From a virus, in IMG/VR virus record IMGVR_UViG_3300030102_006226, positions 1 through 30,493 of that record: a stretch of 30,493 nucleotides of DNA; one strand, 5' to 3'. The first letter of the stretch is position 1, and each line of letters begins with the position of its first letter. Below the pieces are notes generated by a model that searched no databases, was not told the origin of the DNA, and saw only the letters and a list, made by a program, of their open reading frames with translations. The translations under genes and the position numbers were made by a program. Positions 1 to 30,493 of the stretch are shown here, in pieces.

Positions 1-1
1 C

Positions 2-109
2 CCAAACGTTCGTATTGGTAAACACGACGAGTACATCTCAACTCGAATCATCTATAAAGATGAAGAGATACTATACAATTATCCACCACAAGACAGAATC
101 TGGCAATGA
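2..109 (+). CDS. C-terminal end of an unidentified phage protein (5' truncated)
   Basis: An open frame enters from the left edge and runs 35 codons to a TGA at 107-109. Its end, ...YPPQDRIWQ, overlaps the ATG of the next gene as ATGA, the tight coupling seen elsewhere in this window. The visible tail is rich in charged and tyrosine residues and contains no motif I can assign. Its position just upstream of the 222-aa protein and the baseplate genes suggests another structural or late gene, but that is inference. The first base of the window is not part of a complete codon in this frame. Confidence 0.7.
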   Translation, partial: PNVRIGKHDEYISTRIIYKDEEILYNYPPQDRIWQ

Positions 110-774
110 GCACATTAATTACAAATCTACCTGCATATGATGTATGGGTAAGAAAAGAATACCTTACAGACCATAAGAGTGGTCACGGTGAGTTTGAAAA
201 GGGAGTATGGGTATCTGCAAAGAGTATGCCTGGTCGTGCTTTCTACTTTGAAACATATCTACCAGAATATGCAGCAATGTTTGATAAGTTACCGATATCT
301 GCTTTCTTATCTCGTCCAGTGACACCAGATCCAGATATGACTCTACATAACCTACAGTTCTGGAACTGTATGGATTACGGTGTAGTGGCAGTACAGAAGC
401 AGTTTATCGGTTCAATGCACTATGAGGTCTATACTCGTGACTATGGCACTCAAACTGGCACATATGTGTGTACTCTAGACAACTATCATGCTGATGTAGA
501 TGCGATTGACTACTCTACAAGTGAGATACCAGCTGAACATAAGTCACATAACATCATTGAATTAGATAACGGACAGTTTTGTCTCTACCCAAACAATAGA
601 ATGAGGATATATGACAATAGTATCACTCCTGAGACACCTAAGAATCCCGATTTTAAGGTATCAACCGTGTATTATCAGGTGGAAAACGGTCATGATCGTG
701 ATGGATTAGGTTCAGAAGAGAATTATTTCTGGAAAACTGCTAAAGAACGCAAAAATGACCCAGAATTGGGATAA
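106..774 (+). CDS. Conserved hypothetical protein of marine T4-like phages (222 aa)
   Basis: A 222-residue soluble protein starting MSTLITNLPAYDVWVR. It resembles, from memory, a conserved protein of T4-like cyanophages that sits close to the baseplate genes; no function is known to me. It is rich in Tyr, Trp and Asp and has no signal peptide or membrane segment. The start is fixed by the ATGA overlap with the preceding gene. Its base composition is clearly higher in G+C than everything downstream (26 of 60 bases in 301-360), and leucine codons include many CTA/CTC rather than the TTA that dominates later genes. This suggests different selection or a different recent history from the AT-rich block that begins at about 778. 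A structural role is possible from position only. Confidence 0.85.
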   Translation: MSTLITNLPAYDVWVRKEYLTDHKSGHGEFEKGVWVSAKSMPGRAFYFETYLPEYAAMFDKLPISAFLSRPVTPDPDMTLHNLQFWNCMDYGVVAVQKQFIGSMHYEVYTRDYGTQTGTYVCTLDNYHADVDAIDYSTSEIPAEHKSHNIIELDNGQFCLYPNNRMRIYDNSITPETPKNPDFKVSTVYYQVENGHDRDGLGSEENYFWKTAKERKNDPELG

Positions 775-777
775 TGT

Positions 778-790
778 AAAAAAAAAAAAA
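778..790 (+). repeat. A13 homopolymer at a composition boundary
   Basis: Thirteen consecutive A residues follow the stop codon (772-774) of the 222-aa gene and precede the oxygenase start at 797. The tract marks the change from moderate to low G+C. It lies in an intergenic position if the oxygenase starts at 797, but would be coding (Lys run) if the upstream ATG at 755 is used. Confidence 0.9.
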
Positions 791-796
791 TTTATT

Positions 797-1381
797 ATGA
801 CTTATAAAATTAATATACCCAAGCTTTTCCTTAATAAAGACTTTATAGGAGTATGGGATAATGTTTTAGATGATGATTTTTGCAATGAAATCATAAAAAT
901 TGTTGATGAATCAACTCAACTTCGTCATAGAACTCATACTTATGTTGTAGACTCACAAGTAGATATTGGAGCATTTAATCCTTTAATTTCTAATCATATC
1001 ATGTGTGCAGTAAGAGTTTGTTTACAACAATATCTTGATTGGTTTCCCTTTTTAAAAAATTTTAATTTTCATAGCACTACTTGTTTGTTACAAAAAACAA
1101 TGCCTACTGAGGGATATCATGGATGGCACTCTGAATCAAATAATATTGTCACTGCAAATAGAACGTTAGTTTGGTCTGTATATTTTAATAATTTAGAAGA
1201 AAGTGGTGAGACAGAATTTTTATATCAAAAACTAAAACTAAACCCAAAAGTAGGTAGAGTATTAATTTTTCCTGGTTCTTTTACTCATTTACATCGAGGT
1301 AATCCACCATATCAAGCAAAATATATTGCTACTGGTTGGTTAGCTAGTAATGATAGGGGTTCCTCGATCTGCCTCATTTAG
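797..1381 (+). CDS. 2-oxoglutarate/Fe(II)-dependent oxygenase (prolyl-4-hydroxylase-like)
   Basis: Predicted 194-aa dioxygenase with the double-stranded beta-helix signature. Numbered from the ATG at 797, an HxE pair lies at His111/Glu113 within YHGWHSE, a distal histidine (His164 or His166) lies in FPGSFTHLHRGNPP, and Lys175 in KYIATGW is a candidate 2-oxoglutarate carboxylate ligand. Enzymes of this family hydroxylate protein side chains or small molecules using Fe(II), O2 and 2-oxoglutarate; the substrate here cannot be read from sequence. Relatives with the FTHxHRGNPP motif are frequent in marine T4-like phages. An in-frame ATG at 755 would add 14 residues reading through the A13 tract and overlapping the upstream gene; I prefer 797 because the fold normally begins shortly before VWDNVLDDDFC. 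It is much more AT-rich than its upstream neighbour. Confidence 0.85.
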   Translation: MTYKINIPKLFLNKDFIGVWDNVLDDDFCNEIIKIVDESTQLRHRTHTYVVDSQVDIGAFNPLISNHIMCAVRVCLQQYLDWFPFLKNFNFHSTTCLLQKTMPTEGYHGWHSESNNIVTANRTLVWSVYFNNLEESGETEFLYQKLKLNPKVGRVLIFPGSFTHLHRGNPPYQAKYIATGWLASNDRGSSICLI

Positions 1382-1389
1382 TATAAATA
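1382..1389 (+). promoter_or_regulatory. T4-type late promoter TATAAATA
   Basis: An exact match to the T4 late promoter -10 element, recognised in T4 by the gp55 sigma factor with the gp33 co-activator and sliding clamp. It starts directly after the oxygenase stop codon and ends 19 bases before the ATG at 1409. It would drive the 43-aa gene and the following gp25-gp6-gp7 baseplate block. Confidence 0.75.
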
Positions 1390-1408
1390 AGTCATTATGG
1401 AGTAAAAA

Positions 1409-1540
1409 ATGGTAATCAAAGTTGATAAAGATGAAGAATTTATTAAAAATGGTCGAAAATTAATTAGTGAATACGAGGGTGAAGCTTATTTTGAAGAAAA
1501 AGAGGAAGAAAAACCTCAATTTTTAAAAGAGGATCAATAA
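1409..1540 (+). CDS. Small acidic hypothetical protein (43 aa)
   Basis: A 43-codon gene, MVIKVDKDEEFIKNG... ending ...FLKEDQ. It has the best ribosome binding site of the region: GGAG at 1399-1402, six bases before the ATG, downstream of an exact late promoter. The product is highly charged, with a Glu/Lys-rich middle (EEKEEEK), and has no hydrophobic segment. I do not recognise a family. The promoter, ribosome site and uninterrupted frame support a real gene. It may be a small scaffold or regulatory partner expressed with the baseplate wedge, but nothing in the sequence shows this directly. Confidence 0.65.
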   Translation: MVIKVDKDEEFIKNGRKLISEYEGEAYFEEKEEEKPQFLKEDQ

Positions 1541-1543
1541 ATA
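1536..1543 (+). promoter_or_regulatory. Possible weak late promoter AATAAATA
   Basis: A 7/8 match to TATAAATA overlapping the stop codon of the 43-aa gene and about 54 bases upstream of gp25. AT-rich background makes chance matches common, so support is limited to its intergenic position. Confidence 0.3.
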
Positions 1544-1547
1544 TACC

Positions 1548-1574
1548 TATATCTTAAAAACCCTTATAGATATA
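1548..1574 (+). other. AU-rich inverted repeat before gp25
   Basis: TATATCT (1548-1554) is the reverse complement of AGATATA (1568-1574), with a 13-base loop. In RNA it would form a weak hairpin in the 57-base leader before gp25. It has no G+C-rich stem and no T tract, so it does not look like an intrinsic terminator. An RNA-processing or translation role is speculative. Confidence 0.3.
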
Positions 1575-1597
1575 TTAGGAAAAATATATCAAAATGA

Positions 1598-1999
1598 ATG
1601 GCAGTTCAAATTTCTCGTGCATTTAAGGACATAAGTTTATCATTTACAAGGCATCCTGTTACAAATGATGTAACTGTGCTGAAAAATGAAGATGCAATTA
1701 AAAGGTCGGTGATTAATTTATGCCGAACACGTATAAATGAGAGATTTTTTAACGATTTATTAGGTACATCAATTGAAGATTCTTTGTTTGAGACGAATTT
1801 AAATGATATTGCATCATTTTTAGAAAGAGAAATCACTGTTTTACTTAAAAATTTTGAACCAAGGATAAATTTAACTAGTGTAATAGTTGATTCTTTAATT
1901 GATTCGCATGAATTACAGATAAGAATTGAGTATGAAATTACAGGATTACCATTTCCAACACAAAATATAGAATTTTTACTTCAACCGACTAGGATATAA
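1598..1999 (+). CDS. 25: Baseplate wedge subunit gp25
   Basis: 133 aa against 132 in T4. gp25 is the lysozyme-fold-like wedge component that lies at the base of the tail sheath and links the sheath to gp6 in the baseplate inner ring, a core shared with type VI secretion systems. The family's hallmark EPR motif is visible as FEPRINL at about residue 87, following the usual helical region. The gene joins gp6 through a TAATG overlap (stop 1997-1999, ATG 1999-2001), so translation is probably coupled. In T4, gene 25 is located away from gene 6; its placement directly before gp6 is the arrangement of the marine T4-like phages. The ribosome binding site is weak (AGGA about 17 bases upstream). Confidence 0.95.
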   Translation: MAVQISRAFKDISLSFTRHPVTNDVTVLKNEDAIKRSVINLCRTRINERFFNDLLGTSIEDSLFETNLNDIASFLEREITVLLKNFEPRINLTSVIVDSLIDSHELQIRIEYEITGLPFPTQNIEFLLQPTRI

Positions 2000-3882
2000 T
2001 GACATTTTCACAGTTTACAAACCTAGATTTTAATACTTTAAGGGCTCAAATCAAAAATTATTTGAGATCAAACTCAAATTTTTCTGATTTTGACTTTGAA
2101 GGTTCTAATTTTTCAATTTTAATTGATACTTTAGCATATAATTCTTACATAACTTCGTATAATACGAATATGGCTGTCAATGAGGCATTCATTGATAGTG
2201 CAACTTTACGTGAAAATGTAATATCTTTAGCAAGAAATATTGGATATGTACCAAGATCTAAAAAATCTGCTGTTGCAAACATAAGTTTTTCAGTAAATGC
2301 ACCATCTAGAGCAAATGTGGTTAAGTTAAATAAAGGTTTAGTTGCTTTAGGATCAATAGAAGGTGGAAATTATGTTTTTTCAATACCAGATGATATTTCA
2401 GTAACTCCAAATAGTTCAGGAATTGCAAATTTTTCAAATATTTCCATATATGAAGGTAATTATCTAACAAAAACGTTTAGAGTAGACGATTCTCAAACAA
2501 ATCAAAGGTTTATTTTACCAAATGCAAACATTGATACCTCTTCTATTCGTGTTGAAGTTGAAGAAAGTGGTTCATCTTTAGTATATAATGCTTACACAAA
2601 CATTTTTGATGTTAACTCTGAGTCAAGATTGTTTTTATTCCAAGAAATTGATGATGAAAGATACCAAATTATGTTTGGTGATAATATTTTAGGAAGAAAA
2701 CCAGCAAATGGAGCTATAATTAGAGTAAGTTATATTGTTACAAACGGGATAGAGGGAAATAATGCCTCTAACTTTACATTTTCAGGTAATTTAACTTACA
2801 TTTTAGGTGGATCTGATGCATCTATAACAAGTGGTATATCGATTATAACGACCATACAGAAGTCCGAAAATGGAGATTCGATAGAATCTATAGATAACGT
2901 AAAATACCTTGCTCCAAGGGTCTATGCGTCTCAATATAGAGCAGTTACACCTAATGATTATAAGAGTTTAATACCTTTTCTATATCCAAATATTGATTCG
3001 GTAAGTGCTTATGGTGGAGAAGAACTAGATCCACCTGAATTTGGAAAAGTATTCATTACAGTTAAACCAAAAAATGGTGAGGTTCTCTCTGAAGTAGTTA
3101 AGGATTCAATTAAAAATGATTTAAAGAAATATACAGTAGCTGGGATTAAACAAGAATTTCTTGATTTAAAATACTTGTATGTTGAATTTGATTCAACTGT
3201 TTCATTTGATACTGGTTTTATTTCTGATAAATTAAATTTACAATCTAGAATACTGAATGCTATTGAAACTTATGCCAGATCATCAGATATTAATTCTTTT
3301 GGGGGTAGATTAAAATACAGTAAACTATTATCACAAATTGATCGTGTTGATGATGGTATAACATCTAACATAACAACTTTAGTGATGAGAAGAGATTTAA
3401 AACCTCTTTACAATCAAATTGCAACATATGAAATATGTTATGGGAATGTTTTTCATGCTGATTTAGAAGGATTTAATATTCGTTCTTCATCTTTCAAAAT
3501 TGATGGAGTAGACGGTGATATACATCTAACTGATTTTCCGAATGACGATCAGCAAACAGGAATAATTAAATTTTTTAATATCAATGGTAATGTGATTACT
3601 TTTGTTAATAATAATGCTGGAATTGTAGATTATAAAAGAGGTGAAATTAATTTATTCCCCATTAATATTACATCTACTTCTATTTCTGAAAAAATTGAAA
3701 TAGAAGTAACTCCAGAATCTAATGATATTGTCGCAAAAGAGAATCTTTATATTGTGCTAGATACTAAGGGAAATAGCAAACTTAATTTACTAGAGGATGT
3801 TCTTGTATCAGGTTCCAACATTTCTGGAACAAATTACATACCACCATCCAGTTTTATTAGTAATAAAAAATATACAAGATAA
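1999..3882 (+). CDS. 6: Baseplate wedge subunit gp6 (baseplate J-like)
   Basis: 627 aa, near the T4 gp6 length of about 660. gp6 dimers form the continuous inner ring of the baseplate, clamp onto gp25 and gp7, and rearrange when the baseplate switches from hexagon to star. The N-terminal region YDFEGS-like FDFEGSNFSILIDTLAYN (residues about 32-49), followed by AFIDSATLRENVISLARNIGYVPRS, closely parallels T4 gp6 (DYDFEGSRLNVLCDLLAYN ... NLRSSVVQAAQDNGYLP). The central segment with RAVTPNDYKSL and VFITVKPKNG matches the J-like core. The start is set by the TAATG overlap with gp25, and the stop is three bases before the next gene. Confidence 0.95.
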   Translation: MTFSQFTNLDFNTLRAQIKNYLRSNSNFSDFDFEGSNFSILIDTLAYNSYITSYNTNMAVNEAFIDSATLRENVISLARNIGYVPRSKKSAVANISFSVNAPSRANVVKLNKGLVALGSIEGGNYVFSIPDDISVTPNSSGIANFSNISIYEGNYLTKTFRVDDSQTNQRFILPNANIDTSSIRVEVEESGSSLVYNAYTNIFDVNSESRLFLFQEIDDERYQIMFGDNILGRKPANGAIIRVSYIVTNGIEGNNASNFTFSGNLTYILGGSDASITSGISIITTIQKSENGDSIESIDNVKYLAPRVYASQYRAVTPNDYKSLIPFLYPNIDSVSAYGGEELDPPEFGKVFITVKPKNGEVLSEVVKDSIKNDLKKYTVAGIKQEFLDLKYLYVEFDSTVSFDTGFISDKLNLQSRILNAIETYARSSDINSFGGRLKYSKLLSQIDRVDDGITSNITTLVMRRDLKPLYNQIATYEICYGNVFHADLEGFNIRSSSFKIDGVDGDIHLTDFPNDDQQTGIIKFFNINGNVITFVNNNAGIVDYKRGEINLFPINITSTSISEKIEIEVTPESNDIVAKENLYIVLDTKGNSKLNLLEDVLVSGSNISGTNYIPPSSFISNKKYTR

Positions 3883-3885
3883 AAG

Positions 3886-6800
3886 ATGCCTGATAAAAAA
3901 GTAAAAATTTCAAATATTCTTGGTAGTCAGATACCAGATTTCATACAAGCAGATAATCCACTTTTTAAGGAATTTCTAACGCAATACTATGAATCTGAAG
4001 AGCGTGAGTATGGAGCAACATACTTATCTGATAATATCCCATCTTTTAAAAAGATATCAACTGTATCAGACGTATCTTTAATTGAAAAACAAGTAACACC
4101 TGCACCAAATAGCACTTCACCTGAAAAACCAGTACTTTTGCAATCTTTAATATATGCGTATGATGATGAAATAACTGTAGATAGAGGTGAAGGATTTCCT
4201 GAAGCATATGGTCTTTTAAAAATTGACGATGAAATTATTACTTACACAGGAAAAAGGAAAAATTTAACAAATATTGCAATAGTTAACGGTGAGATTGATT
4301 TTGCATATGATAAAACTATAAGTGGAATAAGCACTACAAATATAAAAATTAACGACATTGTAAGTTTATATTCAGTTGAAGATAGAGAAAAAGGTAATAA
4401 CATCGCAATCATACCTGCAACAAGAGTTTCAAGCATTGGTACTGATACAATAACAGTTGATAGACCCATTTCTGGAATTTCAACTTCAGTCATAAATGAT
4501 CAGAATCCTGTGAGAGGTTCATTTTCTTTTACAAGGGAAAGTTTCACATTTACAGGATGTGTTCGTGGATTTAGTGGAATATCTGAGATTGAAACTGCTG
4601 GCAACCCTCAATTTTTAACATTTAGTGAAACCAATGCAAATTCACATGTTTCTAACTCATTAGTCACAAATTTAAGTTTTCTTTTTGTAACACAATTTTA
4701 TAAAAAATTCAAAAAACATTTTTTACCTGGTTTAGAAGGGAAAAATTTTAAATATGGATTAAATGTAGAAAATATTTTATCGAGAGCAAGAGATTTTTAT
4801 AGTTCTAAGGGAACAGATACATCTCTACAAATTTTATTTCAGGTTTTATATGGTGAAGAAGTTGATATAATCAAACCATTTAATCAAACTTTCATGCCAT
4901 CTGATGCAGAGTGGGATGTAACTGATGATGTTATTGTAGAAAGTTTGACTGGAAATCCAATAAACTTAATTGGATTAAAAATATATCAAGATTCTTTTGT
5001 AAATCCAACAGCAAGTGGAGCTGTATCAAATGTTCAGGAAATTTATTTAAAAAATAAAAAATATTATAAGATTTCCTTTTCCAAAGGTACAATATCAAAC
5101 AAATTTAAAGTTTCAACAAAAACAAAAGTAGTTGGAACTTCACCAACCACTGAGGTCACAACAGTAGATTCAACATCTGGATTTTTAAATAATGGTAATT
5201 TTTATTATTTAAATTCAGATAATATCTATACATTAGCAACATATAAATCAAAATCAAATAATCAATTTTTTGGGTGTGTTGGTATCACAACTACATTATT
5301 AGAATCCGATCCAATTATTGATGGTAATTTTGTTTATGGGTATGAAAATAACGATTTGAGTAAGATATGTACAATGAGAATTACTGGATCAATCTCTCAA
5401 ATTTCTAGTAATTTTAATACTACAAAATATTTTGATATTGATGATAAAATAAGAGTTAAACACTTAGGCGAAAAAGTCTCTATCAATGATAGTAAATTTA
5501 ATACTTGGTTTTATAATAATCTATCTTATGTTGATGTACTTAATCATGACGGAAGTGAGACTTTTACTACTGAAGTAGACCATTTTCTTAAAAAAGGTGA
5601 TATTGTAGATATTATTTTAAAATCAAATGGATCAATAAAAGCTGAAAATGTAAAAGTTAAAAGTGTAGGTAAGTCAAATCAATTTAGTGTAGAAATTACA
5701 AGTGCACCAAATACATTTGGTGATTATCAAATAAGAAAAAAAGTAACTTTTATTGACAGTAGATTTGGTATTACTAATTTGATGGGTAATATTCAAAATA
5801 CATTTGTTGATAAAGATAAAAATACTTATGTTTCTTTTTCTGGTTATCCCTCTTTTGAAACTGATACAACTAATAGATCTAAACAATTCAATTCCTCAAT
5901 TGGAGTTAGCACTAATCAAGGTACTTTTAATATAGATAATCATAATTTTTTAAATGGTGAGGAGGTTTATCTTGAACTAGGAAAAGATTTAATATATTCA
6001 AGGGGATCTGGATTAATTGGTATTAACACTGGATTTTATTTTGTTAATGTTATTGACTCTAATAAAATTAAATTATCTTCAACGAGATCTAATTTATATT
6101 TAAATTTACTTGAGGAAGTTAGATATGTTGGTAGCAAAAATGATACTACAACTGGAATCAATACTATTTTTAAAGATGTAGTTCATACAATTACTCCTGC
6201 AGACATATACAAAAGAAAAGAATTAAAAAATCAAAATAATTTTAAAAGAATTTACAAAAATCCAATTATATCCACACAAAATGAAAATATAGTAGGTTCA
6301 GTAGGTGTTTCATTAAATGGAGTAGAATATCAATCTCCAATTTCAAAAGATTCTATAAGTTATGGACAATTAGATGAAATTGAAGTATTAAATTCTGGAG
6401 AGGGTTATGATATTATAAATCCCCCAAAACTACTCATAACTGATGCTTCTGGAAATGGATGTGATTCTTTTGGTAATTTTTCTGGAAATCTATCTGAAAT
6501 AGTATTAACTAATAAAGGATTTAATTTCACGAAAACACCTTCAGTAACAATATCTGGAGGAAATGGGTCTGGTGCTAGTTGTGAAGCTATAATGAAAGGA
6601 TTTACACACAGTAAGTTCTTTACTGATTTCGATATCAGTTTGTCCGCAAATACATTTAATGGTGAACATAGATTTTTAAATGGTGAGGAAGTTGTATATA
6701 CTACTACTGGAGATCCAATAGGTATTAAAACAAATACAAATGTTGGTTTTAATACTGATAAATTATCTTCGGATACTTCATATTTTATTTCTAAAAAATC

Positions 6801-14714: not shown

Positions 14715-16337
14715 ATGCCCGCAATAATCACTGATCAGTATCGTATATTAAATGCCGAAACTTTTGTAGATAGTTTTGTAGGTATTGGTACTACTGGAAA
14801 AAATAACTATTACACATTTTTAGGACATCCAAATCCAACAAATATTACTGATGACATAGGTTATGGTGATTCTAGATGGGCGGTAGAACCCCCTAATCCT
14901 ATTGATAATTTTGATCAGGAAAACAGATATCACGACAGTATGCTTTTTTTAAAAAAAGTCACTTCTAGTGATGTTAGGAGAGTTATACCAAGAATTAATT
15001 GGCAAAGTGGTACCATCTATGAGATGTATAGAAATAATTACAGTTCAACTAATAGAACTCCTCAAACTGCCACCTCTGGTTTATATGGGTCTAATTTTTA
15101 TGTCTTAACGTCTGAGTTTAAGGTATATCTATGTATTAATAATGGATCAGATCCAGAACATCAAGAAGGAAATGTTTCTAAATTTGAACCAACACATACA
15201 TCAACAACAGTTCCAGCAGCAGATAATACTGCATCGGGAGATGGTTATCAGTGGAAATATCTTTATACTATAGCACCCTCTGATATTGTAAAATTTGTTA
15301 CATCTACATATATTCCACTACCTGAAAAATGGGGAGATGTCTCAAATAAAGTTATAAAAGATGCAGCTGTAGATGGAAAGTTAGAAACAATAGTAATTAA
15401 AAGAAGAGGAACTGCGAATGTTAATGGAACTGATGGAGAAGTGAACGTTAAGATAATTGGAGATGGATCCGATGGATTAGCAACTGTAGAGGTTAAAAAT
15501 GGAGTGGTTAACACAATTAAATTAACAAACACCAACTCAAAAGGTTATACCTATGGTGCAGTTCAATTTCTTGGTGGATCCTATGGTGCTAATAAACAAT
15601 TAACTGTGGGGACTGGTTCAGATGAACCTCAATTTGAAGTTATAATACCACCAAAAGGTGGACATGGTGCTGATATTTTTCGTGAATTGGGTGGATTTAG
15701 AGTCATGGTTTACTCTAAATTTGATAACAATATTAATGATAAATCAGATTATATAATTGGAAATACTTTTTCTCGTGTTGGATTAATCAAAGATCCTTTG
15801 GATTTAAGTGGAACTTCTGTTCTAAATAAAAGGACTGCAACATCATTAGGTGCATTAAAATTAAAAGTTCCTGATAATTCAAGCACTGTTTTATCAAAGG
15901 TTGTCTACAAACCAAACACAAAGATAACACAATATTCAAGTGATTCCACTGTAGGTGTTGGAACAGCAGTTGCATATGTTGCTTCTTGGGATTCTAATAC
16001 TGGAGTTTTGAGATATTATCAACCTGTTGGTTTTTCAACTCAATCCGTGCATGGTTACGAACTTCGTAATTTTGTAGGAGTTACTACTTCAATAACGGGT
16101 GCAACTCACATTGAAGCTAATAACACTGTAGATAATTTAACCGTTGATACATCATTCAATGGTGAATCTGTTACCGTCGGTCAAAGAGATGAGGCTTTAG
16201 GTCATAATTTTGTAAGTGGAATCGCTAATCCTGAAATTAAAAAATATTCTGGAGAAGTGATATATATTGATAATAGAGCACCCGTAACAAGGACATCTTC
16301 ACAAAAAGAAGAAGTAAAAATAGTAATAGAATTCTAA
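14715..16337 (+). CDS. 8: Baseplate wedge subunit gp8
   Basis: 540 aa against 334 in T4. gp8 dimers bind gp7 in the baseplate wedge. Three landmarks match: the N-terminal FVDSFVG...NNYYTFLGHPNPW-like opening with DSMLFLKKVTSSDVRRVIPRINW (T4: ...VLPSMLDAVIPRRDW); the central GDGYQWKYLYTIAPSD (T4 GDGYVWEYLFEIPPD); and the C-terminal SGEVIYIDNRAPV...EEVKIVIEF (T4 SGEMIYMENRPPI...EEINILFTF). The extra length lies mainly between about residue 180 and 500, including a GGHGADIFRELGGFRVMV segment and several G-[IV]-x-T motifs. It has its own late promoter and is followed five bases later by the next gene. Confidence 0.92.
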   Translation: MPAIITDQYRILNAETFVDSFVGIGTTGKNNYYTFLGHPNPTNITDDIGYGDSRWAVEPPNPIDNFDQENRYHDSMLFLKKVTSSDVRRVIPRINWQSGTIYEMYRNNYSSTNRTPQTATSGLYGSNFYVLTSEFKVYLCINNGSDPEHQEGNVSKFEPTHTSTTVPAADNTASGDGYQWKYLYTIAPSDIVKFVTSTYIPLPEKWGDVSNKVIKDAAVDGKLETIVIKRRGTANVNGTDGEVNVKIIGDGSDGLATVEVKNGVVNTIKLTNTNSKGYTYGAVQFLGGSYGANKQLTVGTGSDEPQFEVIIPPKGGHGADIFRELGGFRVMVYSKFDNNINDKSDYIIGNTFSRVGLIKDPLDLSGTSVLNKRTATSLGALKLKVPDNSSTVLSKVVYKPNTKITQYSSDSTVGVGTAVAYVASWDSNTGVLRYYQPVGFSTQSVHGYELRNFVGVTTSITGATHIEANNTVDNLTVDTSFNGESVTVGQRDEALGHNFVSGIANPEIKKYSGEVIYIDNRAPVTRTSSQKEEVKIVIEF

Positions 16338-28403: not shown

Positions 28404-29456
28404 ATGTTAGGAACCTATTATTATCACGAAATTATTAGAAGGACTATTATATCCTTTGGCACACTTTTTAACGAAATAGATATAAAACACCAAACATCTG
28501 CAGGTGGAGCATTTTCAACTGTGAGAGTTCCAATTGCTTATGGCCCAACAGAAAAGTTTTTAGCAAGATTAGAGCAGAAACCAGATTTAAGAAAGAGAGT
28601 TGCAATAACTCTACCTCGTCTAGCATTTGAAATGGACGGTATATCATATGATCCTGCAAGAAAAGTTTCAACAATGCAAACTTTTAAAGCATTTACAAAA
28701 GATGGATCTAAAAGTGCAAGAAAAGTTTTTATGCCTGTTCCATACAATTTGAGTTTTAAGTTATATGCAATGACCCAATATAACGAAGATTCTTTACAGA
28801 TTATAGAACAAATATTACCATACTTTCAACCATCATTCAATTTGACTGTAGATTTAGTTAAAGCAATTGGTGAAAAAAGAGATATACCAATGATTTTAGA
28901 TAGTGTAACTTTTGATGATAATTATGAGAGTGGATTCGATCAGAAAAGAGTCATAACTCATACATTAGGATTTACAGCAAAAACATATCTATTCGGCCCT
29001 GTATCTGATTCTGGAACTGGATTAATTAAGAAAGTTCAAGTTGATTATCATACAAGTACAAACACTAAAACTGCATCAAGATTTAAAAGATATGTTGCTA
29101 CACCTAGAGCTCTTAAAGATTATAATGATGATGGAGTCACAAGACTTGCAGAGGATATAACAAAAACTCAAAGAAAATTCTTAGTACAAAATACTGAGAG
29201 TTTGGTTGTGGATACTTATATCGCTATTGGTAATGAACTAATGTTTATTAAAGAAATTGATGGGAATAATATTACTGTCAATCGTGGTGAAGATGGAACA
29301 ACTATAGATACTCATATAAACGGTGATATAATTGATGCAGTAAACGCTGCTGATGACGCACTTGTTGAGGTTGGTGATGACTTTGGATTTAGTGAACAGA
29401 GATTTGATTTACCAGACTACAGATCTTATAGTCCAACAAAAGGAGTTGATGTATGA
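28404..29456 (+). CDS. 15: Tail completion / sheath stabiliser protein gp15
   Basis: 350 aa against 272 in T4. gp15 forms the hexameric cap that closes the tail tube and sheath after polymerisation and provides the docking face for the neck. The N-terminal YYHEIIRRTIISFGTLFNEI.IKHQ...VPIAYGPTEKFLARL parallels T4 (YNSSFRRYATLMGDLFSNIQIKRQ...VPITYASKEHFMMKL). The central QIIEQILPYFQPSFNLTVD is nearly identical to the T4 motif VEQILPYFQPHFN. The extra length is mostly at about residues 254-311, a module with IGNELMFIKEIDGNNITVNRG then GTTIDTH, which also occurs in the gp7-like giant. The stop overlaps the gp16 start as ATGA. The start lacks a good ribosome site. Confidence 0.94.
   Translation: MLGTYYYHEIIRRTIISFGTLFNEIDIKHQTSAGGAFSTVRVPIAYGPTEKFLARLEQKPDLRKRVAITLPRLAFEMDGISYDPARKVSTMQTFKAFTKDGSKSARKVFMPVPYNLSFKLYAMTQYNEDSLQIIEQILPYFQPSFNLTVDLVKAIGEKRDIPMILDSVTFDDNYESGFDQKRVITHTLGFTAKTYLFGPVSDSGTGLIKKVQVDYHTSTNTKTASRFKRYVATPRALKDYNDDGVTRLAEDITKTQRKFLVQNTESLVVDTYIAIGNELMFIKEIDGNNITVNRGEDGTTIDTHINGDIIDAVNAADDALVEVGDDFGFSEQRFDLPDYRSYSPTKGVDV
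29163..29336 (+). repeat. RG-GTT-H module in gp15
   Basis: Residues about 254-311 of gp15 contain ExMFIKEIDGNNITVNRG followed by DGTTIDTHINGDII. The pattern [IE]xxExM/I...I.V.RG..GT....H..G matches segments at residues about 1648-1692 and 2806-2855 of the gp7-like protein and about 2073-2140 of the DUF4815 protein. It appears to be a portable beta-domain added to a tail-completion protein. Confidence 0.7.
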
Positions 29457-29872
29457 GTAAATTTGAAGAGATAGATGAATTTTTGGATATAGAACCGATT
29501 GATGTTCCAAAAAAGAATCAGATTAAAAAGATAGAGAAAAAAGATGATCCTACTCTTGACTATGAGTATTCAAGAGGTAATTTATATTCTTTAATTGAGA
29601 AAGGACAAGAAGCAATAAATGGTATTCTAGATGTAGCACAAGGAAGTGATCATCCTAGAGCATATGAAGTTGCAGGACAATTAATTAAAAGTGTTGGGGA
29701 TACAACTGATAAGTTGATAGATCTTCAAACCAAAATGAAAGCATTAAAAAAGGAAGATGATAGTTCACCAAAAACTGTAAACAATGCACTATTTGTTGGA
29801 TCAACATCAGAACTTTCAAAATTATTGAAGAAAGGTGTTCTAAATAATAAGGTGGAAAAGGAAGAAGAATGA
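29453..29872 (+). CDS. 16: Terminase small subunit gp16
   Basis: 139 aa against 164 in T4. gp16 is the ring-forming small terminase that recognises concatemeric DNA and stimulates the gp17 packaging motor. The central helical hairpin LYSLIEKGQEAINGILDVAQGSDHPRAYEVAGQLIKSVGDTTDKLIDLQ is the coiled-coil core of the T4 small terminase family, where the PRAYEV segment is a hallmark. The N-terminus is acidic and lysine-rich and should be flexible. It begins within the gp15 stop (ATGA) and ends within the next start (ATGA), so it is translationally coupled on both sides. The large terminase gene expected next in T4 order is not in the window. Confidence 0.93.
   Translation: MSKFEEIDEFLDIEPIDVPKKNQIKKIEKKDDPTLDYEYSRGNLYSLIEKGQEAINGILDVAQGSDHPRAYEVAGQLIKSVGDTTDKLIDLQTKMKALKKEDDSSPKTVNNALFVGSTSELSKLLKKGVLNNKVEKEEE
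29839..29846 (+). promoter_or_regulatory. Possible variant late promoter TCTAAATA before the last gene
   Basis: The same octamer as at 28372, here inside the 3' end of gp16 and ending 22 bases before the ATG at 29869. A purine-rich stretch (GGTGGAAAAGGAAGAAG) between element and ATG supplies a ribosome binding site. Its location within coding sequence lowers confidence. Confidence 0.4.
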
Positions 29873-30493
29873 AAACATTCAAAGAATTTATACAAGAAAG
29901 CAGTCTTTCGAGAATTAAAAGTAAAGCAGATAAGGGTGGTATGGCTATCCTTTCTGGAAGTCGTGGTGATAAATCTGCAAAAGAAAATCGTGCAAGAGCA
30001 AAACAATTAGATAAGGATATTCGTGGAAAGTTTGGAAAGGGTGCAACAAAAGTAACTGGAAAGTATCTTGAAAAAGATGAAAAAACTGGAGAAGAGAAGA
30101 AAGTGAAAGAAAGAAGTCATATTGTGACTTCTGGTAAGATGGGTAAGAGAAAATTTAAAAAGGCAGTCAAAGCATTAGGTAAAAAATATGATCAGGATGC
30201 AGTAATTACACAAACAAAAGGTGGTGGAGGGGCTACACTTAAAAGAACTCGTAAAGGTGGATTACCAAAAAGAAATATAAAACTTGGAAAGATGAAACCT
30301 CAAGGTAGAAATCCAGAGGCAGAAACTCAAGTTAAAGGTAAAACATTTACTTATGAGTCATATCTTCGTATTCAAGAGAGAGGCAAAACTTATACAATAG
30401 CACTTAACTGGAGAGGAAAATTAATTACTACTCAAATGTTTATACCATCATTTAAGAGACCATCAAAAGCAGAGATGACAGCAGAAGTACAAA
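29869..30493 (+). CDS. Putative capsid-targeted basic internal protein (3' truncated)
   Basis: An open frame of 208 codons runs off the right edge. The N-terminus MKTFKEFIQESS closely matches the capsid-targeting sequence of T4 internal proteins (IPIII begins MKTYQEFIAEA), which directs them into the prohead and is removed by the gp21 protease after [IL]-x-E; I8-Q9-E10 fits. The following ~130 residues are strongly basic, with SGSRGDKSAKENRARAKQLD, later SHIVTSGKMGKRKFKKAV and LGKKYDQDAVITQ. This order resembles a DUF3293-like domain, a tentative match. The visible C-terminal part, TYTIALNWRGKLITTQMFIP...FKRPSK, resembles a module of cyanophage proteins. It starts at an ATGA overlap with gp16. 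I infer a DNA-associated protein co-packaged in the head and possibly ejected. Confidence 0.75.
   Translation, partial: MKTFKEFIQESSLSRIKSKADKGGMAILSGSRGDKSAKENRARAKQLDKDIRGKFGKGATKVTGKYLEKDEKTGEEKKVKERSHIVTSGKMGKRKFKKAVKALGKKYDQDAVITQTKGGGGATLKRTRKGGLPKRNIKLGKMKPQGRNPEAETQVKGKTFTYESYLRIQERGKTYTIALNWRGKLITTQMFIPSFKRPSKAEMTAEVQ

Follow-up and report, generated by a model that had tools for sequence, protein, structure and literature searches.

An oxygenase gene inserted ahead of the baseplate wedge genes of a marine T4-like phage, with a probable source in tail-fibre clusters

Gene content of the window

The window (the whole stretch of 30,493 nucleotides analysed here) corresponds to bases 1-30493 of a 30,869-bp virus fragment in IMG/VR, and its open reading frames, together with Pfam and PHROG profiles, reveal the structural block of a marine T4-like myovirus (Table 1). 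The nearest named relatives of its gp6, among the phage records listed, are cyanophages. To the left of gp25 the gene order is p3704 (phrog_3704), a 2OG-Fe(II) oxygenase gene and a 43-aa ORF (orf43).

p3704 is the last gene of a higher-GC upstream module and forms the left border of the site described below. Its conservation is far above that of its neighbours, with 84% identity to P-SSM2 compared to at most 56% for gp6 among the phage records listed, and database labels on the phrog_3704 protein vary between purM, ferredoxin and transcriptional regulator. The 222-aa protein has no Pfam match, a profile search of the PDB gave best E-values of only 0.22 and 0.86, and AF2 produced no usable model (pLDDT 29). 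At the other end of the window lies an S-adenosylmethionine lyase-like gene (29869-30492, cut by the window end; PF23780, 62.8 bits against a cut-off of 28), which is also matched in two relatives' contigs, G001 and G002, of the 12 records searched. Rfam gave nothing in the window at gathering scores, NCBIfam gave no match for the p3704 and oxygenase proteins at E 0.1, and psbA (PF00124) was found in none of 17 relatives' records, every one of which is a fragment.

Table 1. Features of the window, with the evidence for each
Feature	Position	Strand	Evidence
p3704 (phrog_3704), conserved 222-aa protein	106-774	+	phrog_3704 E 2.3e-111; 84% identity to P-SSM2; GC3 0.329
612-bp inserted block	771-1382	+	empty-site alignment A1; ATAA at left bound, ATAAATA at right bound
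A13 tract, leader of inserted gene	778-790	+	A11 in L207
2OG-Fe(II) oxygenase, probably of protein-hydroxylase type, 194 aa	797-1381	+	PF13640, 31.4 bits (cut-off 27); phrog_61 1.1e-41; alignment A2; fold
TATAAATA, T4-type late-promoter motif, right border of insert	1382-1389	+	27 nt 5' of orf43 start
orf43, small conserved 43-aa ORF 5' of gp25	1409-1540	+	
gp25 baseplate wedge	1598-1999	+	PF04965, phrog_261
gp6 baseplate wedge	1999-3882	+	phrog_219 3.1e-190
further baseplate wedge protein	14715-16337		
gp15	28404-29456		
terminase-like gene	29453-29872		slightly below its Pfam cut-off

Filled and empty sites in relatives

Relatives were sampled as the best 80 loci of each scan, and tblastn with the window proteins gave 49 close loci holding both p3704 and gp25, which reduce to 48 distinct contigs (L102 and L201 being one contig). 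Among the matches listed, the oxygenase site is empty in 47 of the 48 and filled only in L207, at a nucleotide position identical to that of the window. The initial annotation had read the oxygenase as an accessory gene and its site, ahead of the baseplate block, as a likely insertion or recombination junction; the gene order of close relatives, all but one of which lack the gene, bears out the insertion. Alignment A1, consisting of the window, L207 and six empty loci chosen from the close set, places the edges: the empty loci read ...GAATTGGG|ATAAATAAGTCA... with small variations, and the window reads GGG-ATAATGT-A13, the oxygenase gene up to its stop TAG, and then TATAAATAAGTCA. The 612-bp block sits between the p3704 stop and the late promoter TATAAATA. 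Two codon-degenerate DNA patterns from two regions of the gene, specific to the window and L207, each matched only the L207 contig in an exact-match search of the viral collection, from which the window's own record was possibly excluded.

Between the window and L207, dS is 0.097 for the oxygenase (dN/dS 0.27) compared to 0.796 for p3704, 0.447 for orf43 and 0.675 for gp25. The oxygenase value is far below those of its flanks, so exchange of the insert, or its movement between these lineages, took place well after the flanks had separated, and the insert is young relative to the flanking genes. The C-terminal ends of p3704 differ between the two phages, and the identity profile has no clean step at the edges, as 60-bp stretches outside the insert reach 0.95-0.97 (586-705 and 1486-1605).

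An oxygenase that was ancestral at this site and lost in other phages would also leave exact junctions common to L207 and the window, and gene loss is easy in phages. There is nevertheless very little chance that this is the explanation: besides the 47 empty close contigs, 57 distinct more distant loci have a slot that is empty or holds other genes, with this oxygenase in none; the cultured phages S-8S55 and Sf-FS3 have no oxygenase annotated at the site; the dS of the gene lies far under that of its flanks; and the gene nests within a clade from tail-fibre clusters (see below). An assembly chimera at the homopolymer is barely credible. A long homopolymer does adjoin the junction of a contig taken from a virus collection, with the reads not at hand, but both junctions recur in L207, and that contig diverges from the window by 4% in the insert and by 14-19% in the flanks, so it is no duplicate of the window's assembly.

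A self-moving element of the homing endonuclease or transposon type could account for a discrete insert with ATAA on both sides at one site in two phages. This too is very unlikely, since the only listed plus-strand ORF in the block is the oxygenase and the ATAA repeat is part of the late-promoter motif. No nuclease or transposase was found in the block, whose sole listed ORF of at least 60 aa is the oxygenase, and its ends carry no conserved terminal inverted repeat. The pair at 794-805 and 1387-1398 was rejected as such a repeat, because its right arm lies in the recipient and L207 does not preserve it. An 11-nt direct repeat, TGGGATAATGT (767-777 and 854-864), was likewise dropped, as short pairs often occur by chance and its first copy differs in L207.

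The interval between p3704 and gp25 also holds other genes. A survey of p3704-gp25 loci, 97 distinct ones once 18 identical regions, L201 and the window had been removed, found NATAAATA in 95. The slot has no cargo in 66 loci (39 close and 27 more distant), this oxygenase in one, a SpeD-like gene in 18, a short ORF in ten, and a 233-aa and a 149-aa protein in one each. The SpeD-like genes, called by tblastn with PF02675 confirmed on three query proteins, lie before NATAAATA in more distant phages (L082, L085, L094 and 15 more loci). The proteins at L109:5859-6560 (233 aa) and L129:6867-7316 (149 aa) have no Pfam match, and the short ORF ('u101', 53 aa in L101) may be only the counterpart of orf43. 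In S-8S55 and Sf-FS3 the order is p3704, a small ORF, gp25 and gp6, with no cargo annotated. In P-SSM2, p3704 adjoins purM, and for P-SSM3 and S-CAM22 the annotation shows no baseplate gene in the 3 kb on either side of p3704.

Composition step and A-tract

The initial annotation had taken a fall in G+C at an A13 run as the sign of an insertion or recombination junction. Both features exist as described: by hand count, G+C is 26/60 (43%) at 301-360 and 14/60 (23%) at 1021-1080, and the A13 run is followed by the oxygenase gene. The compositional outlier is p3704 (GC 0.395, GC3 0.329), not the oxygenase (GC 0.302, GC3 0.160; window GC 0.308), because the 16 window genes other than p3704, oxygenase included, have a GC3 of 0.112-0.203 and none of 285 sampled 666-bp windows downstream reaches the GC of p3704. 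The insert matches the structural genes and the window average in composition.

The step is also present in relatives. Among full-length close loci (gp25 identity at least 84%), p3704 exceeds gp25 in G+C in all 33 compared, 32 of which lack the oxygenase (L102 and L201, both among the 32, are one contig). Upstream ORFs have a GC3 of 0.34-0.48 compared to 0.15-0.28 for downstream ORFs, and are higher in 14/14 relatives, drawn from 15 hand-picked ones (one without downstream ORFs) and including some near-copies; p3704 is also above the rest of its own locus in 99 of 104 full copies, with near-copies counted. As relatives without the oxygenase show it too, the step is an ordinary, older boundary between a higher-GC upstream module and an AT-rich structural module. 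The upstream genes do differ from the average composition, but they do so in the relatives too.

That the step and the A13 run themselves mark a recombination junction is highly improbable. The step, the A-run and the insert edge do fall within about 30 bp of one another, the left edge at 771 lying 7 bp before the run, but p3704 exceeds gp25 in G+C in 32/32 full-length close loci without the insert, the GC3 difference is found in all 14 relatives measured and the insert has an average composition. The A13 run is the sole A-run of at least 8 in the window, but its length by itself could be due to chance, as 5 of 30 first-order Markov sequences matched in composition contain a run of at least 13. 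The accessory insertion proposed at the outset thus stands, and the composition step and A13 run offered as its evidence do not.

In L207, the single relative with the same insert, the run is A11. The oxygenase start was taken as the ATG at 797, which fits its relatives; the first listed ATG of the ORF, at 755 within the 3' end of p3704, is in frame with the gene only via A13, and L207 (A11) has no such start. The length of the A-tract could change an N-terminal extension of the oxygenase.

Late-promoter motif and junctions

NATAAATA is the late promoter reported for S-PM2 in PMC2984593. By sequence, the right border of the insert carries a T4-type late promoter, with NATAAATA shortly upstream of a late gene. 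On the plus strand TATAAATA occurs at 1382, 14688 and 23903, in each case 27-37 nt (27, 27 and 37) before a gene start, and on the minus strand it does not occur; the count is not above chance (4.4 expected per strand), and it is the placement that is telling. In the 47 empty close contigs the motif is invariably GATAAATA, which overlaps the p3704 stop in 44, so that T in the window and L207 (TATAAATA) stands against G in 47/47 empty close relatives. TATAAATA is the form found at tail-fibre loci, where it lies no more than 60 bp after the oxygenase in 32 of 36 measurable cases compared to 0.8% of random stretches, but it follows SpeD in the slots of other phages too, so the T at 1382 need not derive from a tail locus. 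At the left edge, the leader ATAATRTAA precedes 8 of 36 tail copies (28 lack it) compared to 1.1% of random stretches.

Both crossovers can be placed in ATAA/ATAAATA, which is common to donor-type flanks and the recipient promoter, and short-homology recombination is therefore the likely route of insertion, judged from the shared letters at the junctions. A simple consensus scan of positions 1-4000, by which real sites can be missed, found neither a terminator-like stem nor a plus-strand sigma-70-like site at 754-797 or 1370-1410, whereas a PeSL (promoter early stem-loop) cassette would have an early promoter and a stem-loop at the gene border.

The oxygenase protein

The oxygenase belongs to PF13640 (2OG-FeII_Oxy_3), with a score above the curated cut-off (Table 1). 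In an alignment of 30 sequences (A2), H111, H166 and K175 are invariant (30/30), and position 113, an E in the window, is also E in at least 90% of rows and D in the two paralogues. H111, E113 and H166 are accordingly the predicted iron ligands of an HxE...H site, with K175 as the putative 2OG-binding residue. Profile searches of the PDB gave Bacillus anthracis prolyl 4-hydroxylase (P4H; 1.5e-10) and the PBCV-1 enzyme 5c5t (9.9e-9). The AF2 model (pTM 0.82; pLDDT 79.4, falling under 50 at 109-120, next to the predicted iron site) has the double-stranded β-helix fold of the P4H/PHD type; Foldseek gave 6.9e-10 to 5iav, structural comparison gave a Z of about 15, and the fold neighbours include B. 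anthracis P4H, the PBCV-1 collagen prolyl hydroxylase (vCPH), PHD2 and a mimivirus lysyl hydroxylase. On the strength of this model, the gene probably encodes a protein hydroxylase of the prolyl/lysyl type.

The P-SSM2 protein labelled 'denV, DNA endonuclease V' (L236:18414-18983) also matches PF13640 (27.3 bits against 27). This label, and that of phrog_274, may be wrong, as the protein looks like a 2OG oxygenase.

Tail-fibre clusters as the source

In a maximum-likelihood tree of 84 distinct proteins, the window and L207 copies pair (100/100) within a 33-row set that otherwise contains 31 tail-fibre-cluster copies (100/97). The window copy thus belongs to a tail-fibre clade of oxygenases; its sister group inside the set is poorly supported and the branch to the pair is long (0.31). 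Among the matches listed, the closest relatives (L002-L028, 70-79% identity) have the oxygenase directly 5' of a chaperone match in 27/27 loci, and none of six relatives at 62-64% (L029-L034) has a chaperone match behind it. The proteins of L003, L008, L009 and L020 were scanned for tail-locus content: the chaperone is PF16778 (3.1e-20), and the genes upstream of the oxygenase in the inspected loci encode collar or collagen-like fibres (PF01391 at 1e-18 and Gp10_C in L003).

The pairing was also examined from the chaperone side. The oxygenase is directly upstream in 59 of 98 loci with a chaperone match and not in 39. Under an author-chosen filter for close standalone chaperone genes (match from residue 5 or earlier, identity of at least 65%, identical copies removed), it is directly upstream in 39/39 distinct genes among the matches listed, and because the query chaperone was taken from a locus with the oxygenase, and the oxygenase itself served to retrieve part of the loci, this figure holds for close chaperone relatives only. 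None of the 39 loci without an adjacent oxygenase passes the filter, and in 36 of them the match begins only at residue 13 or beyond.

Among the matches listed, the closest candidate donor reaches 79% over its full length (82% over the partial copy L039). The window locus and the tail-fibre loci are known from separate fragments: five tail-fibre contigs (G018-G022) are without the window's 271-aa gene, and among 14 window-type contigs, all fragments, only that of L207 has an oxygenase match. On the 20-kb tail-fibre contig of L002 (G020) there are four oxygenase matches, and one contains an internal TAA. Insertion of the gene together with its origin from a tail-fibre cluster is, on this evidence, the probable history of the locus.

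Candidate substrates

A virion protein, one of the targets that the initial annotation had considered, is a plausible substrate. G-X-Y runs of at least 8 occur in 30 of 39 tail loci compared to none of 74 baseplate loci, a contrast that is confounded, since tail loci are where fibres are encoded, and that is no test of substrate. The window itself contains no collagen-like repeats. Of the 1631 triplets in such runs at tail loci, 746 have Lys at the Y position and 75 have Pro; collagen lysyl hydroxylase modifies lysine that is followed by glycine. Lysine in G-X-K repeats is consequently the first candidate, as a lead and not a test. That the enzyme acts by hydroxylation on a tail-fibre protein is a possibility which we hold tentatively.

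Action on nucleic acid or on 2-oxoglutarate pools, in repair or nitrogen signalling, is a doubtful though serious competitor. For cyanophage relatives, two papers propose AlkB-like DNA repair, with genes near uvsX/uvsY (PMC2984593), and 2OG/NtcA signalling (PMC3037559), and in P-SSM2 such oxygenase genes adjoin uvsX and gp46. The window copy, however, falls in the tail-fibre clade, and most of its best fold matches are protein hydroxylases, although a fold does not show the substrate.

Discussion

The insertion of the oxygenase block and the position of its edges are directly observed; the route is our proposal. A related marine T4-like phage would have supplied a 612-bp one-gene cassette, copied from its tail-fibre cluster. 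During a mixed infection, short-homology recombination in ATAA/ATAAATA would have placed this cassette downstream of p3704 and ahead of the late promoter of orf43-gp25-gp6, with the late-promoter motif restored at the cassette's right edge. Later, phages with far more diverged flanking genes would have exchanged the cassette. As it lies upstream of the late promoter, the oxygenase would presumably be expressed by read-through from further upstream, not from the late promoter itself, and the enzyme might hydroxylate a residue of a tail-fibre or adhesin protein and so alter fibre stability or host binding.

This is a known enzyme family in a new place. The cyanophage 2OG-Fe(II) oxygenases (phrog_61; T4-GC 101/240) belong to the same profile family and, like the window copy, have a scattered accessory placement in T4-like marine phages, but the best listed phage record is only 48.5% identical, all 432 records with a match are below 60%, and the window copy sits in a separate, tail-fibre-linked clade. 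In PBCV-1 and mimivirus a viral hydroxylase is found together with collagen-like proteins, and HxD is the usual motif in such hydroxylases. The folds of PBCV-1 vCPH (5c5t/5c5u) and the mimivirus L230 lysyl hydroxylase (6ax6/9nev) match the window protein (Z 14.4-14.9), which differs in identity (14-22%), in its HxE in place of HxD and in coming from a phage and not a eukaryotic virus. B. anthracis prolyl 4-hydroxylase (3itq, 5hv0, 5v7y), at about 20% identity, gives the best sequence-profile match and the top Foldseek rows; the title of 5v7y names EF-Tu as a target.

PeSL shuffling in T4-type phages (Arbiol 2010, Comeau 2014), as described by citing papers, likewise involves exchange at regulatory sequence on gene borders, although the border here is a late-promoter motif. 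Phage proteins with an EGLN3-like structure, most of them annotated as 2OG-Fe(II) oxygenases, have been described (PMC12774648). PMC7029224 reports that the structural operons of pelagi- and cyanomyophages encode some proteins with collagen repeats, that freshwater pelagimyophages have a 2OGFeDO gene, and that promoter methods developed for cyanophages gave unsatisfactory results in the phages studied there. A title- and abstract-level literature search, with subscription journals mostly outside it, found no description of a phage tail-fibre hydroxylase or of the p3704-gp25 slot. The fullest picture, in which marine T4-like phages have a dedicated lysyl/prolyl hydroxylase for collagen-like fibres, carried by a one-gene cassette that enters at late promoters, and the p3704-gp25 junction is a general cargo slot (SpeD, hydroxylase and others), is speculative and on balance unlikely.

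Marine T4-like phages widely carry 2OG-Fe(II) oxygenases as accessory genes with no settled substrate. One clade is tightly paired with a tail-fibre chaperone, and this pairing would offer the fibre as a concrete, testable substrate, as against repair or nitrogen signalling. At base level, the comparison of empty and filled sites illustrates how such a gene can enter a conserved structural region with the late-promoter motif unbroken.
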